Source: Thermosynechococcus sp. CL-1 (GTDB taxonomy: Bacteria > Cyanobacteriota > Cyanobacteriia > Thermosynechococcales > Thermosynechococcaceae). Taken from it: a stretch of 64,000 nucleotides of DNA. Position 1 is the stretch's first letter. Each line of letters opens with the position of its first letter. Location of the stretch: the NCBI RefSeq assembly GCF_008386235.1, contig NZ_CP040671.1, positions 248,001-312,000 on the forward strand, written 5' to 3'. The translations under genes and the position numbers were made by a program. The notes under the pieces were generated by a model. It saw nothing but the letters and a program-made list of their open reading frames with translations, ran no database searches and was not told the DNA's origin. Positions 14,936 to 23,858 of the stretch are shown here, piece by piece.

Positions 14936-16285
14936 ATGAGCGTTTGGCAGCAGGGTGCCACCATTGAGCTAACAATTGACTCCTTGAGCCACACGGGGGA
15001 GGGGGTAGGACGCTGGCAGGATCGGGTGGTCTTTGTGGCGGATACAGTTCCGGGCGATCGCCTGCGGGTGCGACTGACCCATGTCAAGCGGCAATATGCC
15101 CACGGCAAGGTCTTTGAGGTGGTGCAGCCCTCAGAACAGCGGGTGCGGCCAAGCTGTATTGTCGCTGATAAGTGTGGCGGCTGTCAGTGGCAGTGTGTGG
15201 CCTATGGGGCGCAATTGGCGGCCAAAGAACAACTGGTGAAGGACGCGATCGCCCGCATTGCTCATCTAGAGCCGCAAACCTTTCTGCCCATTGTGGCTGC
15301 CCCTAACCCCTTTGGCTATCGCAATAAAGTGACGTACCCCCTCGGTCGCCGCCATGGTACCGTGGTTGCGGGCTATTACCAAAAAGGCTCCCATCACCTA
15401 GTGAACTTGAATCAATGTCCCGTGCAAGATCCGCGCCTCAATCCGCTCTTGGCTGCCCTGAAGCAAGCGTTACAACCTTGGCCGATATACAACGAGCAGA
15501 CCCATGAACCGGGGTTGCGCCACTTGGGCTTGCGCATTGGTCAGCGTACCGGGGAGCAGCTCATTACCCTCGTGCTCGCGGGGGCATTACCCGCTGGCTT
15601 GCAGGCAGAGACAGAAGGTTGGTTACAGCAGTTTCAAGGGGTGGTGGGGGTCTGTGTCAACTTCAATCATCAAGTGGGCAATCGCATCTTTGGTGACGAG
15701 ACCCAGGTATTGGCGGGGCGATCGTACCTTTGGGAAGAGATGGCAGGGGTGAGGTTTCAGATTGCCTCGACCACCTTTTTTCAAGTCAACACGGCGCAAG
15801 CGGAGCAACTGGTTAGCACCCTGCGAGAGTGGATTGCCCCAACGGGTCACGAACGACTGCTGGATCTCTACTGTGGAGTCGGGACACTGAGCCTACCCCT
15901 TGCCGGCGCTGTCGCTGAAGTGATTGGTGTGGAAGTGCATCCTGCCTCGGTACAACAGGCGATCGCCAACGCCCAGCACAATGGTATTCACAATGCTCAC
16001 TTTCTCTGCGCCAGAGCAGAAGAGTGGCTACCCCAGTCCGATCAGGCCGTGGATGTGCTAATTCTTGATCCACCGCGCAAAGGGTGCGATCGCCCCCTTC
16101 TTGAGGCGATTCTCCGCCACCGTCCGCCGCGCATTCTCTATGTCAGTTGTCACCCTGCCACCTTGGCACGGGATTTGGCTCACCTCTGCGCTACCGGTGC
16201 CTATCAACTAACCAAAATTCAGCCCCTCGATATGTTTCCGCAAACAGCCCATGTAGAAACGGTTGCTTTACTGACTACTTCCTAG
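14936..16285 (+). CDS. rlmD: 23S rRNA (uracil-5)-methyltransferase RlmD/RumA
   Basis: A SAM-dependent RNA methyltransferase of about 449 residues. The N-terminal TRAM domain (about 1-65) binds RNA. The iron-sulfur motif is Cys74, Cys80 and Cys83 (C-x5-CGGC). The methyltransferase domain has LDLYCGVGTLSLPLA for SAM, DPPRKGCDR, and the nucleophile/base motif YVSCHPATLARDL. The frame runs back to a TTG at 14882, but the ATG at 14936 (MSVWQQGATIEL) starts exactly at the TRAM domain. In bacteria with a single such protein it modifies U747 and/or U1939 of 23S rRNA; the exact site here is not determinable. Its end overlaps ccmN, tail to tail. Confidence 0.93.
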   Translation: MSVWQQGATIELTIDSLSHTGEGVGRWQDRVVFVADTVPGDRLRVRLTHVKRQYAHGKVFEVVQPSEQRVRPSCIVADKCGGCQWQCVAYGAQLAAKEQLVKDAIARIAHLEPQTFLPIVAAPNPFGYRNKVTYPLGRRHGTVVAGYYQKGSHHLVNLNQCPVQDPRLNPLLAALKQALQPWPIYNEQTHEPGLRHLGLRIGQRTGEQLITLVLAGALPAGLQAETEGWLQQFQGVVGVCVNFNHQVGNRIFGDETQVLAGRSYLWEEMAGVRFQIASTTFFQVNTAQAEQLVSTLREWIAPTGHERLLDLYCGVGTLSLPLAGAVAEVIGVEVHPASVQQAIANAQHNGIHNAHFLCARAEEWLPQSDQAVDVLILDPPRKGCDRPLLEAILRHRPPRILYVSCHPATLARDLAHLCATGAYQLTKIQPLDMFPQTAHVETVALLTTS

Positions 16286-16930
16286 GGCAGGATTTTCCCC
16301 AGTGGGTTGGATGGGCTCTACGCGAAATATTTTGGCAAACATCTTGCTAACGTAGGCTTGGCCATAGACTACGCTGGTCTTAGGTGTTGGCGAAGTGCTT
16401 GTCTCTGGTGGCGCGGCGGCTGGACTTTCCTGATGGCTAGAGGGAGAGGCTGTAGACTCCTGCTGCTCTGGCGGGGCATTCTCTGCAGTATCGGCAGTTG
16501 TTGATGGCTCTTGCCAAGGATCCTCAGAGGAAACGGCACTCTCTTGGGGGGGACTCGTTTCTGCGGGGGGCTGCCAACGGCGACTACTATCACCAAGAAG
16601 CGAACCAGCAGCCACCACAGCACCAGCCGGAATCGTTGTTTGCATCACGGTGGTACTGGCGCCAATACAGGCATGGGGTTCAACGGTCACTGCCCCAATC
16701 AGCAGCACGCCCGCGCCAATGTTGACCCCTTCGCCAATTTCAATGGTGCCGCCGTGGGCATGAATGACGCTGCCCATACCAATACAGACACCTGCGGCAA
16801 TGCGAATTGAAGCCCCTGCTTCTGCCCAAAGCAACACCCCGGGTGCCAAAACGGCTTGGGGATCCACCACCACATCACCAACAATGCGAACCGCGGGTGA
16901 AGGGGGCAGGGCTAAAGGCGGCAGGGGCAT
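16268..16930 (-). CDS. ccmN: Carboxysome assembly protein CcmN
   Basis: A 220-residue adaptor that connects the CcmM/Rubisco core to the shell. The N-terminal half is a left-handed beta-helix of hexapeptide repeats (GDVVVDPQAVLAPGVLLW, GEGVNIGAGVLLIG). A long Pro/Ser/Thr-rich disordered linker follows at about 118-185. Near the C terminus lies the amphipathic encapsulation peptide VYGQAYVSKMFAKIF, which binds CcmK. A tail follows it (RVEPIQPTGENPALGSSQ), so the peptide is not quite terminal. It is the last gene of the ccm operon, 21 bases after ccmM. Confidence 0.95.
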   Translation of the reverse strand: MPLPPLALPPSPAVRIVGDVVVDPQAVLAPGVLLWAEAGASIRIAAGVCIGMGSVIHAHGGTIEIGEGVNIGAGVLLIGAVTVEPHACIGASTTVMQTTIPAGAVVAAGSLLGDSSRRWQPPAETSPPQESAVSSEDPWQEPSTTADTAENAPPEQQESTASPSSHQESPAAAPPETSTSPTPKTSVVYGQAYVSKMFAKIFRVEPIQPTGENPALGSSQ

Positions 16931-16951
16931 TGGGGCACCTCACAGGGAGGG

Positions 16952-18928
<1,977 letters not shown>

Positions 18929-19228
18929 CTAATACTGGGTACGTTTGCTGTAGAGCAAATAATTATCCCGACTTACGGTGTCAATAATGGCGACAACGGC
19001 TGCGTCAATGGGTTTGTCGGTGCCATTGATAATACAGCGGGCGGCACTGCCTCGGCTTACCAATACCCACTCATCCTGTCCTGCACCAACCGTATCCGCA
19101 GCCACTTCGTAGTCGGGTAAAAATTCGCCGTCCTCACCCAAATATTGCAAGACGAGAAACTTGACTCCCGTTAAGGTGTCTTCTTTTTGAGTACTGGTAA
19201 CGGTGCCGCACACTCGCGCGATTTTCAC
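18929..19228 (-). CDS. ccmL: Carboxysome vertex protein CcmL
   Basis: A 99-residue member of the EutN/CcmL family that forms pentamers capping the icosahedral vertices of the shell. It begins with MKIARVCGTVTSTQK and contains the conserved core GVKFLVLQYL, DTVGAGQDEWVLVSRGSAAR and AAVVAIIDTV. The start codon is GTG and overlaps the TAG stop of ccmK1 by one base, which implies translational coupling and may help keep its level low relative to hexamer proteins. Confidence 0.97.
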   Translation of the reverse strand: MKIARVCGTVTSTQKEDTLTGVKFLVLQYLGEDGEFLPDYEVAADTVGAGQDEWVLVSRGSAARCIINGTDKPIDAAVVAIIDTVSRDNYLLYSKRTQY

Positions 19229-19569
19229 TATGGGCGACCCATCGGGCGGATACCGCTAACGCTTTCGCGGAATTGTTCCACCGCTTCGGTGTAGCGAATG
19301 GGTAGGACGTATTCGAGGTTTTCGTGGGGACGTGCAATGATGTGGGTGGAAAGCACTTGACCCCCATTCACACGCTTCACGTTTTCGACCCCCGCCGCCA
19401 CCGAAGCCTGCACTTCAGACACATCACCACGGACAATCACAGTCACCCGACCACTGCCGATTTTCTCGTAGCCCACGAGGGTAACGCGAGCGGCTTTCAC
19501 CATTGCGTCTGCGGCTTCCACCACTGCGGGGAAACCAAGGGTTTCAATCATACCGACGGCAATTGCCAT
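19228..19569 (-). CDS. ccmK1: Carboxysome shell hexamer protein CcmK1
   Basis: A single-BMC-domain protein of 113 residues that tiles the shell facets. It has the pore loop KIGSGR after [18 protein letters not shown] and [14 protein letters not shown]. It carries a C-terminal extension ([12 protein letters not shown]) absent from its neighbour CcmK2, the usual distinction between the two. The two proteins differ at only about six positions over the shared 101 residues. A ribosome site (TAGGAG) precedes the ATG. It lies 96 bases downstream of ccmK2. Confidence 0.96.
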
Positions 19570-19665
19570 TGTAATAACTCCTAAACGTCAAACAAGTAAA
19601 GAACTAAAAGAACCAGAGGATCGATAAGCGATGCAACTGAAAACTCCACCAAACTGCCCAACCCT

Positions 19666-19974
19666 TTAGTTTCGGAATTGCTCCACTGCCTCGGTATAGC
19701 GAATGGGCAATACGTACTCAAGGTTTTCGTGGGGACGAGCAATGATGTGCGTAGACAGAACCTCGCCGCCATTGACACGTTTGGCAGAATCAACCCCAGC
19801 AGCCACTGAGGCTTGTACTTCGGAGACATCACCCCGCACAATCACAGTGACCCGACCACTCCCAATTTTTTCGTAGCCCACAAGGGTGACCCGAGCGGCT
19901 TTTACCATTGCGTCTGCTGCTTCGACGACGGCGGGGAATCCGCGCGTTTCAATCATTCCCACAGCAATTGGCAT
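19666..19974 (-). CDS. ccmK2: Carboxysome shell hexamer protein CcmK2
   Basis: The major shell hexamer, 102 residues, one BMC domain with the same pore loop (KIGSGR) and core motifs as CcmK1 and a short terminus ending EAVEQFRN. It is the first gene of the ccm operon. AGGAGAG lies just upstream of the ATG, and a strong promoter is predicted about 140 bases upstream. Confidence 0.96.
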
Positions 19975-20383: not shown

Positions 20384-22606
20384 TCAAACAGCAATTAACT
20401 TTTCTCGATCAATACTCTGTAAAACGCTGATCGAACCGATGCGCTGAAACTCTTTGCTACTTTTATCGGCGAGGTGCAGTACCCAAGGCAGTCGAGAAGA
20501 GCAAAATCCGCTAGCAGGATGCAATTGAGTCAAATGATAGGTCTGTAAAGCCAGTAGCTCTAAAGGGGTCTTGCCATGGGTGTGCACAACGCGCAACGGT
20601 CTAGCACTGCCTCCATATTTTTTCTTGCTTGCCTCCTCGCTACTTTGTAAAATAAACGATTTCGTTTCCTCGAAAAAGACAACAGTACCCACTGCAGCAT
20701 CCTGATAGGTTACTTTGCTATCAGTTGAACGAATCTCACGTCCCATTCTGCCTGAGCCGCTTTTACGGACACTGAGAATATCGACAGCAATATCTTTTTT
20801 ATTTAGTTCTTCGATTGTTTGCTCAAATTCCCCTTTTTGAATAAGGCCGTCGCGCATAATTAATATCTTTTTAGGGTAGCGGTTAAATTTAACTTGAAAC
20901 TTAAAAACTAAACTAGACACAACTTGCCAAATTACTTGGCCAGAGATAGTTTCTCCCCGTTGCACATCTGGTAACTCCCAACCCAAGCTTTGACCATTGG
21001 CCAAGACTGCAAAAGCAGAAGTACCATAGTACAGTCTTCCATTTGTACCTGTGTCAAAACCGATAACCAAGTCAGCAGCTTCAGAATGATCTAATGGTTT
21101 TAGGTAGACAGGCTGCCACTTGGCTTTACACAGCAGCCCTAGGCAAACATTGAGAGATTTATAATTATTTACATTAACTGGCACCATAAACTGAGTTGCT
21201 ATACCTGCTTTTAATGCTTGATTTCGCAATTTTTGTTTTTCTTCATTGGGCGACCAAGGCATCACTACTAAGACAGTTTTAATTCCTTTATTAGCCCATT
21301 GCTGCCAGAATGTTTGTTGATCCAGATCATCTTTCGGATATTCGCTTTTTGTAAAACAGGAGTCTATTTGTATCTGCGTGTCACTACTTTTTGCTATTTG
21401 CAGTAAGCATTCGCGTACTTTTTCTGGGTATTGAGGTTTATCATCAAAAAGATTAAGGCAACCAAATTTCGTTTCGCCAATTTTTGCACAGCCAAAGAAG
21501 CTAATTTTAGCTGTTTTGTCAATTTCTTTATTATCGCAAGCTAATAGTTTTGCGCGAGGCATGACAAACCCGTTAACTTTGATCAGCTCTGGTTGATGAC
21601 TAAGATTATAGATGTGTTTGAAAATGAGTTCGGCTGTTTTTTGGGATTCCGACAAACGCAGGTTAATGTTTTTCCTAATGCAGTCAAACACACCTTGAAT
21701 TTCACTTTTTTCTCTGCCTTGTTCAGCAATTTGTGCCAACATTTCCATTGTGAGAACTGGTGATAGTCTTTGAGATAGATGATATACTGTCTTAGGTTTA
21801 TAGTCACTAGTTTTTTCAACAGTTACAACGCGTGACTCATTGATATCTTGCTCAGATGCACCGTTTTGACGGTGGTAAGCCGCTAAACTGATTCCGAGTT
21901 CTTTTATTTCTACATCATTTGGATTTTCATTCGAAAAATTTTTAAGAATCCAAACTTGTTGATTTCCGTTTTTATCTTTGTAGGTATTCCTGACGTACTT
22001 GATCTGAATATCGGGATATTCATTGAGCCACCATTCAAGTGTAAATGGAGTATAAAAGCGATGATGAATATCAATTTCCAAGTATAATTTTCCATCTGGC
22101 TCAATTCTAACGTTGATTGCTCCACCTCTATGTACTTCCCAGCCATGGCCGCTTTTTTCCAGCCCTTTTTGGTCAAAAATCCACCAAATCAATCCGACTT
22201 CGTAATCTTTTTCAAATCTGGTTTTCTTAAATTTTTCTTTTAATTTGCACTCTAGGATTTTGCGTTCAAAGGATTCCAGTGCTTGCCTTTCGTGATCTTT
22301 TTGACAACTCAGCTCTCTACATCCTATTTCTTGTAACTGCCAATCCTGAGTTTGCCTCCTACTAGTATCAATACGCTCCCTTGTAATAATGAGGCTCCCT
22401 AGTCGAACAGCAGTTACGCCTAGTTTGTAGCAAACGCTGGAAAGGGCTTTTTGCTCGCTCCCTTGTTCTGGCACTTGAGTAAATTGGCATTGGTATTCAT
22501 AAAATCTGAGATCCTGTTGAGTCAGATTTTTCACAAAAAAACGATTGAGTATAACTTCAACTTCTGGAAATTGGGCGGACATCATTGATAGAGAATGTAT
22601 TGGCAT
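20384..22606 (-). CDS. ago: Long prokaryotic Argonaute (PAZ-MID-PIWI nuclease)
   Basis: A 740-residue Argonaute, a guide-directed nuclease used by prokaryotes against invading DNA. An N-terminal region is followed by a PAZ-like segment (about 195-285, including LGISLAAYHRQNGA and YHLSQRLSPVL), a MID domain (about 360-505, with Lys466, Gln472 and Lys494 as likely guide 5'-end contacts) and a PIWI domain (about 510-740). The catalytic tetrad looks complete: Asp518 (VIGFDTG), Glu552 (RGETISG), Asp586 (LIMRDG) and Asp714 (LHLADKS). The 34-residue spacing between the first three equals that of Thermus thermophilus Ago. No Shine-Dalgarno site precedes the first ATG; Met8 or Met9 are alternative starts. 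The gene is AT-rich, lacks HIP1 and has no nuclease or helicase partner beside it, so it was probably acquired horizontally. Confidence 0.93.
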   Translation of the reverse strand: MPIHSLSMMSAQFPEVEVILNRFFVKNLTQQDLRFYEYQCQFTQVPEQGSEQKALSSVCYKLGVTAVRLGSLIITRERIDTSRRQTQDWQLQEIGCRELSCQKDHERQALESFERKILECKLKEKFKKTRFEKDYEVGLIWWIFDQKGLEKSGHGWEVHRGGAINVRIEPDGKLYLEIDIHHRFYTPFTLEWWLNEYPDIQIKYVRNTYKDKNGNQQVWILKNFSNENPNDVEIKELGISLAAYHRQNGASEQDINESRVVTVEKTSDYKPKTVYHLSQRLSPVLTMEMLAQIAEQGREKSEIQGVFDCIRKNINLRLSESQKTAELIFKHIYNLSHQPELIKVNGFVMPRAKLLACDNKEIDKTAKISFFGCAKIGETKFGCLNLFDDKPQYPEKVRECLLQIAKSSDTQIQIDSCFTKSEYPKDDLDQQTFWQQWANKGIKTVLVVMPWSPNEEKQKLRNQALKAGIATQFMVPVNVNNYKSLNVCLGLLCKAKWQPVYLKPLDHSEAADLVIGFDTGTNGRLYYGTSAFAVLANGQSLGWELPDVQRGETISGQVIWQVVSSLVFKFQVKFNRYPKKILIMRDGLIQKGEFEQTIEELNKKDIAVDILSVRKSGSGRMGREIRSTDSKVTYQDAAVGTVVFFEETKSFILQSSEEASKKKYGGSARPLRVVHTHGKTPLELLALQTYHLTQLHPASGFCSSRLPWVLHLADKSSKEFQRIGSISVLQSIDREKLIAV

Positions 22607-22687: not shown

Positions 22688-22727
22688 ATAGAATCGTCGT
22701 GGATATTTATGGGTGTGGAGTTCTTGT

Positions 22728-23858
22728 ATGCTGCGGCTACCAATTCAACCGATTTGGCAAAGGGTTTCCCAGTGGCCGGTGTGGGAGCCAACACGGCTGG
22801 CGATCGCCAGTTCAATTCTGCTGCACGCTGTGATTCTTTCCCTTGTGCGTGTGCCCGAACCCATACCGCCAGAGTTGGCCAGTGATCAACTGGTGCCCTT
22901 GGTCAGCCTTTCTCCCGAACTAGAAGCGGATTTACCCTCTATTGAACCGCTCTTGCCCACGGAACTGCCGCCCCTTGCCACGACCACACCACCGCCTCTA
23001 CCGTTTACAGGCATTGAGCCACCCCCCCTTTCCTTTGCCCCCTTGGCACCCCTGCCCCCCTTGCCGCCGCTGACGGAACTGCCGCCCCTACCCAATCCAG
23101 TACCGCTGCAACCTTTGCCGCCGCTATGGCAATTGCCCCCGCCCGCCCGCCCCTTACCTGTTATCCCGACAACCCCGAATGAGGATGTGGCCATTGCGCC
23201 GGAACTCGTCTCACCGACACCTACGCCTGAACCCACCCCTGAAGAACCCTTAGCAACCACAGAGGGGGAAGCAGCGGCAGCGTTATCGCGGTGGTTTAAT
23301 CAAACGCGGTTGACCCTCAATACGACGAATCTACAAGTGAATTTAGCCCAGCGGATCACGGACTTTTATCCCCAAGAGGCCTGTGGCGATCGCCTGCAGG
23401 GGGAAACAACCGTTGCGGTGGTGGTCACTCCCCAAGGGCAATTGCTGCCTGCCAATGCCGCCCCAGAAACTGGCTTGCTCACTCGCAATCCCCAAATTAT
23501 TCGCAGCAGTGGCTCGGCACTCTTGGATCAAGCGGCTCTAGAACGGGTACGTCAGCAATCCTTTGAGGCCACAGGGCAGTACCAAGCCCTAGCGCTCACC
23601 TTTGCTTTTGAGTATCGGCCCGAAGTATGCCGAGGTCAGCAACCTGCTGCCACCCCAAGACCACAGCCTGCCACGCCAGCACCGGCAACACCACTACCAA
23701 CACCAAAACCAGAGGCTAGACCATCCCCTGCGAGTGAAGCCTCACCAGCACCCACACCCACTGAAGAAGCGCCACTGCCCGTATCCCCAGAACCTAGCGA
23801 GACAAACTCGTCGTCTGAAGCGCCGGCTGCGAGTCCGCCAGCAACATCTCCCGAATAA
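22728..23858 (+). CDS. TonB-like proline-rich envelope protein
   Basis: A protein of 376 residues with a TonB-type plan. A short cytoplasmic start and one membrane helix (about 24-40, LAIASSILLHAVILSLV) precede a very Pro-rich periplasmic spacer (about 45-180, many PLPPLPP repeats). A globular domain follows (about 190-300, ETTVAVVVTPQGQLL and ALLDQAALERVRQQSF), similar to the TonB C-terminal fold, and then a second Pro/Ala/Thr-rich tail. TonB proteins carry ion-gradient energy to outer-membrane receptors; ExbB/ExbD are not in the window. A GTG at 22713 is an alternative start. The last 65 bases overlap the 3' end of the ubiB-like gene on the other strand. Confidence 0.78.
   Translation: MLRLPIQPIWQRVSQWPVWEPTRLAIASSILLHAVILSLVRVPEPIPPELASDQLVPLVSLSPELEADLPSIEPLLPTELPPLATTTPPPLPFTGIEPPPLSFAPLAPLPPLPPLTELPPLPNPVPLQPLPPLWQLPPPARPLPVIPTTPNEDVAIAPELVSPTPTPEPTPEEPLATTEGEAAAALSRWFNQTRLTLNTTNLQVNLAQRITDFYPQEACGDRLQGETTVAVVVTPQGQLLPANAAPETGLLTRNPQIIRSSGSALLDQAALERVRQQSFEATGQYQALALTFAFEYRPEVCRGQQPAATPRPQPATPAPATPLPTPKPEARPSPASEASPAPTPTEEAPLPVSPEPSETNSSSEAPAASPPATSPE

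Follow-up and report, generated by a model that had tools for sequence, protein, structure and literature searches.

A Long-A Argonaute Gene Beside the Carboxysome Genes of Thermosynechococcus and Its Putatively Cassette-Borne Relatives

Some long Argonautes use RNA guides or cut RNA, and sequence alone does not reveal the guide type. The closest characterised relatives of the protein described here, TtAgo of Thermus thermophilus and SeAgo of Synechococcus elongatus, act on DNA with DNA guides. Two studies describe SeAgo as active in DNA-guided DNA cleavage (PMC10653904, PMC10269773), and one of them adds that it prefers single-stranded DNA and lowers transformation and plasmid maintenance (PMC10653904). 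In E. coli, SeAgo becomes loaded with small DNAs and rescues the cells from gyrase inhibition, but its deletion in S. elongatus leaves growth and ciprofloxacin tolerance unchanged (PMC10269773). Thus, its benefit to the native host is only partly understood. Thermosynechococcus was reported in 2023 among the cyanobacteria with predicted active long-A Argonautes (PMC10653904), so that the gene studied here, which the original prediction had put forward as a notable find, belongs to an already reported group.

We analysed a stretch of 64,000 nucleotides (the window) from a Thermosynechococcus genome that consists of one 2,647,823-bp contig. Enzymes of this type have been described from Thermus and a related cyanobacterium; more surprising are the retention of an Argonaute throughout the genus, the differing Argonautes and sites, and relatives that appear to be cassette-borne.

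A single-chain Argonaute with an aligned catalytic tetrad

The Argonaute gene lies on the minus strand at 20384..22606 and comprises 740 codons plus stop with an ATG start (Met8 or Met9 may be a plausible alternative). This span matches the originally predicted reading frame exactly; the strand, which the original prediction did not give, is minus, and the plus strand across 20384–22606 has stops throughout. The gene has a GC content of 39%, against about 55% for the window. It matches the PADLOC pAgo profile (E 1e-298), and a phmmer search of solved structures returned TtAgo as the best match, nearly end to end (E 2e-70, residues 15–738). The PAZ domain covers residues 192–283 (21758..22033, minus strand; Pfam PAZ_3, E 4.9e-30). 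MID, at about residues 371–510 (21077..21496, minus), was placed by alignment with TtAgo and relatives, its Pfam Ago_Mid match being weak and below the cut-off (E 0.0056), and PIWI, at about residues 511–740 (20384..21076, minus), by the TtAgo alignment and the predicted fold. N, PAZ, MID and PIWI are all found in one chain, as indicated by PAZ_3 and by the full-length match to TtAgo in both sequence and fold. The protein is a long-A prokaryotic Argonaute of the TtAgo/SeAgo clade, and the prediction of a long Argonaute in a thermophilic cyanobacterium was correct.

An AlphaFold2 model built from 16 sequences reached a mean pLDDT of 80 and a pTM of 0.78. TtAgo complexes were its top Foldseek matches (E 2e-54, TM 0.74–0.77 by query length), and VIA-align also ranked TtAgo first (Z 36.5, 652 residues aligned, 30% identity), above CpAgo, KmAgo and human Argonaute proteins. 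Profile search and structure prediction, two of the checks proposed beforehand, both return the Argonaute family with TtAgo as the best match. The mesophilic long Argonautes with solved structures, CpAgo, CbAgo and KmAgo, share PIWI homology and the overall fold but are more distant, at 15–18% identity in fold alignments. Confidence in the model falls below pLDDT 50 in loops 520–527 and 549–552, the latter including E552, so the model does not establish a closed active site containing this residue.

The four acidic residues are D518 (codon 21053..21055), E552 (20951..20953), D586 (20849..20851) and D714 (20465..20467, all minus strand). In both the phmmer pairwise and the multiple alignment they fall column for column on TtAgo D478, E512 (the glutamate finger), D546 and D660, and the spacing of the first three, 34 and 34 residues, equals that of TtAgo, as predicted for both motifs and spacing. 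The tetrad that marks the clade is DEDX in PIWI, where X is D, H or K, and the window Argonaute has DEDD. D518, E552 and D586 are invariant across the 16 aligned sequences; position 714 carries D except in one sub-clade, which has H. All six orthologues at the carboxysome site have an intact tetrad.

In the putative MID pocket, the conserved K457, R461, Q472 and K494 align with TtAgo R418, K422, Q433 and K457, which we take to be the contacts of the guide 5′-phosphate. K466, Q472 and K494 had been proposed as contacts, and all three residues are present in the protein. Q472 and K494 do match pocket positions; K466 does not, as it pairs with TtAgo R427 and its position varies among relatives (K/Q/R/E/G). 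A 5′-phosphorylated guide can reasonably be inferred for the window Argonaute.

How close is this protein to the characterised enzymes? TtAgo agrees with it in fold, in domain order and in the tetrad with its 34/34 spacing, but is only about 29% identical and has R418/K422 in MID where the window protein has K457/R461. SeAgo is much nearer. Over 728 aligned positions, the window Argonaute shares 56.9% identity with the SeAgo-type protein of G408, a genome that is presumably S. elongatus PCC 6301; the G408 protein is 29.7% identical to TtAgo, and the published figure for SeAgo is 29%. In a tree with TtAgo as the only outgroup and no inactive Argonaute included, the window protein, the SeAgo-type protein and further DEDD Argonautes of cyanobacteria form one supported group (97/98). 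The two proteins thus belong to one clade, share about 57% identity over their whole length, and have DEDD as well as K, R, Q and K at the MID positions. They differ in setting: SeAgo comes from a mesophilic host, whereas the window copy resides in a thermophile, at a carboxysome locus, in a genus with an Argonaute in every sampled genome. A closer protein still, the orthologue in G089 (which we take to be T. vestitus BP-1), occupies the same chromosomal site in a different species, is 75% identical and has DEDD; we found no study of it in the open literature searched.

Is the enzyme active? The intact tetrad, the SeAgo relative at 57% identity and the lack of a likely partner among the neighbouring genes predict, as did the original prediction, an active nuclease rather than an inactive, helper-dependent form. 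A protein that only binds nucleic acids, being catalytically inactive or dependent on a helper, would agree with the finding that just 20 of 160 cyanobacterial long-A Argonautes combine the full tetrad with PAZ (PMC10653904). We regard it as very improbable given that the tetrad is intact in six orthologues, that the relative at 57% is active and that no neighbouring gene looks like a partner. Candidate partners were considered and rejected: the neighbouring genes are housekeeping, and what PADLOC matches in them is generic, namely helicase, kinase and methyltransferase domains. Use of RNA guides instead of DNA, or cutting of RNA targets, is known for some long Argonautes, but it is improbable here because SeAgo and TtAgo, the nearest characterised relatives, act with DNA guides on DNA.

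We therefore favour, with considerable confidence, a standalone DNA-guided DNA nuclease of the SeAgo/TtAgo kind that would act mainly against incoming DNA. Short 5′-phosphorylated DNA guides would be loaded in the MID pocket, with their 3′ ends held by PAZ, and complementary DNA, chiefly single-stranded, would be cut, at the temperature at which the host grows, by the DEDD site with two divalent metal ions. Transforming DNA, plasmids and phage would be the targets, and the enzyme might also help with chromosome replication. Its single low-GC gene would have entered this site in an ancestor shared by some of the genus. Our data show the fold, the domains, the key residues, the purifying selection, the synteny and the gene's loss or replacement in relatives; whether the protein cuts, with which guides and on which targets, how it withstands heat and what it does for the host are projected from relatives. 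Thermosynechococcus dominates mats at about 50–65 °C, according to what one source says of them (PMC7005997). With such a host genus and its kinship to SeAgo, the window protein is a candidate for heat-tolerant DNA-guided cutting, and its heat stability is a reasonable inference.

Retention, loss and replacement in Thermosynechococcus

On one side of the Argonaute gene lie the carboxysome shell genes (two BMC, CcmL-type and CcmM-type; 16952..19974, minus; Pfam BMC, EutN_CcmL and four RuBisCO_small), which occur in all genomes of the genus. A divergent gene for a proline-rich TonB_C-domain protein lies on the other (22713..23858, plus; Pfam TonB_C). No tRNA or known structured RNA that could have served as an insertion point was found within the window, and scans for promoters and terminators did not clearly exceed the shuffled controls. 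Between the window Argonaute and its five orthologues, dN/dS is 0.18–0.30 (by domain, 0.17 for MID and 0.19 for PIWI), with 0.04–0.16 for the five flanking genes compared. Thus, the Argonaute protein at the carboxysome site is under purifying selection. All seven genomes of the genus that were tested, the window genome included, encode the ComEC competence channel. Cas1 is present in the window genome and was not found in three of these seven, which argues against a tie between the Argonaute and CRISPR.

Among 390 genomes drawn from the class, all 11 sampled Thermosynechococcus genomes carry an Argonaute, against 19 of 379 other cyanobacteria (Fisher p 8e-14, a value that ignores shared ancestry within the one genus). 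These are not the same gene: the Argonautes of the genus fall into three classes at several sites, and on the Argonaute tree the genus label requires at least four changes. Class 1, that of the window, occurs in six genomes, flanked by the carboxysome genes and the TonB_C gene (DEDD, GC about 40%). Class 2, also DEDD with a GC of about 40%, occupies other sites in G385, which has two identical copies, and in G386. Class 3 is DEDH, has a GC of 47–55% and adjoins recO in G386 and G391 and leuB in G389 and G392. The class 2 copy of G386 is 97% identical to the Argonaute of G085, a member of another family, and has thus been recently transferred. The two G385 copies, 2,234 bp each and 100% identical, lie 13.8 kb apart (L025:2346-4579 and 16110-18343), one with a full attC site and the other with a partial one only; G385 is a draft metagenome-assembled genome, as are G389 and G392, and its duplicate may be an artefact of assembly. 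A contig end truncates the G392 Argonaute. As a separate observation, the DEDH clade is confined to Thermosynechococcus in our sample (L017, L014, L015, L016), with a GC content nearer the genome's own.

The carboxysome site retains traces of a lost gene in several genomes. In G385, which of the genus genomes is nearest to that of the window (94.8% marker-gene identity, against 78–92% for the others), the Argonaute is reduced to an 83-bp stub (L051:564-646) that is followed by the TonB_C side. The stub preserves the last 79 bases of the window gene (20384..20462, minus), and the match resumes at about 22635. G389 has two short Argonaute pieces at the site (E 2e-5 and 8e-5, L053:7644-7744) and G392 a weak match of 28 bases (E 0.012, L052:8669-8696). 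No remnant was found at this site in G386 and G391, which form the deepest branch, nor were remnants of a DEDH-type Argonaute found at leuB or recO of other genomes. Thus, the class 1 Argonaute was probably acquired after G386 and G391 had split off and then lost repeatedly, in every case from a genome that holds another Argonaute; G385, G389 and G392 all carry one of a different class.

Why is the genus never without an Argonaute? One explanation is that its main role is housekeeping, in which small DNAs from the replication terminus help to finish or separate chromosomes. Such a role has been proposed for TtAgo, and E. coli under gyrase inhibition is rescued by SeAgo (PMC10269773); the retention in 11 of 11 genomes, with another Argonaute in those that lost the carboxysome-site copy, points the same way. 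S. elongatus, however, shows no such effect when SeAgo is deleted (PMC10269773), and non-orthologous copies and divergence faster than that of flanking genes also fit a defence gene. We thus hold a primarily housekeeping role to be possible yet doubtful and keep to a nuclease directed mainly at incoming DNA. A small-genome thermophile genus that always has an Argonaute, and not always the same one, offers a clean system for studying the role of active prokaryotic Argonautes.

Argonaute genes as putative integron cassettes

Cyanobacteria are known to carry integrons and attC sites (PMC2426708, PMC8352920, PMC8618304). We found that class 2 Argonautes and their relatives in G085, UBA999 and the Gloeomargaritales genome VI4D9 adjoin 86-nt repeats whose bottom strand can fold like an attC site, leaving two bases extrahelical. 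Compared with shuffled sequences, the fold is far better at the UBA999 site (z −4.7), and less clearly so or not at all at other sites. Across the stem, 93% of cells are paired, against 31–43% when it is slid, and compensatory changes are present. Within arrays, the end of R′ is the reverse complement of the start of R″ at the next site, perfectly so in 9 of 11 adjacent pairs (permutation p 0.0004) and in 11 of 13 (p 7e-5) after UBA999 and Chlorogloea CCALA 695 were added by eye; these p-values are descriptive, the arrays having been picked after the repeats had been seen. Five Argonautes, those of G386, G085, UBA999, VI4D9 and Chlorogloea CCALA 695, show the features of attC cassettes, with attC directly downstream of the gene and R′/R″ complementary to the site before it or to the start of the cassette (L023:7399-11412, L029:8724-11180, L066:7195-7280, L076:1753-6673 and L065:7218-7303). 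Judged by these features, at least five cyanobacteria carry an Argonaute as a putative integron gene cassette. We found no description of such a cassette in the open literature searched, the subscription literature being mostly outside this search. If true, cassettes would provide Argonaute genes with an additional route of spread.

An intact integron integrase is present in the UBA999 metagenome-assembled genome (TIGR02249, 467.9 bits, cut-off 265; L130, G538:C5:50204-51145), on a different contig from its Argonaute. Partial or broken integrase genes were found in G391 (C1:1355057-1355858), VI4D9, G085 and G177; for two of these genomes, VI4D9 and G177, attC matches occur no more than a few kilobases from the integrase fragment. 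In G386, no integron integrase was found. The VI4D9 Argonaute is broken by about 1.24 kb of other sequence (L076:3751-4994).

The window Argonaute itself was considered as a cassette and rejected, as searches by pattern and by model found no attC in the window or the genome (G000); an AGATAAC heptamer lies downstream of the gene, and the rest of an attC is missing. We lean slightly towards a scenario in which catalytically intact Argonautes circulate as cassettes among cyanobacteria of hot springs and elsewhere and the genus is pressed to keep one, so that lineages losing the resident copy hold a replacement of another class; the window gene would then be a settled member of this pool that has no attC.

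Two further observations concern single genomes or lineages. A lone attC-like site in G390 (L021:14627-14713, 67.5 bits) lies inside an insertion of roughly 750 bp, near a hexapeptide-protein gene beside the CcmM-type gene and about 3.5 kb from the Argonaute. Among filamentous cyanobacteria, predicted-active Argonautes have been reported in only two metagenome-derived sequences (PMC10653904); we observed full-length DEDD Argonautes in the filamentous Leptolyngbya FACHB-60, Tildeniella and Nostoc FACHB-130 (L061, L062 and L064).
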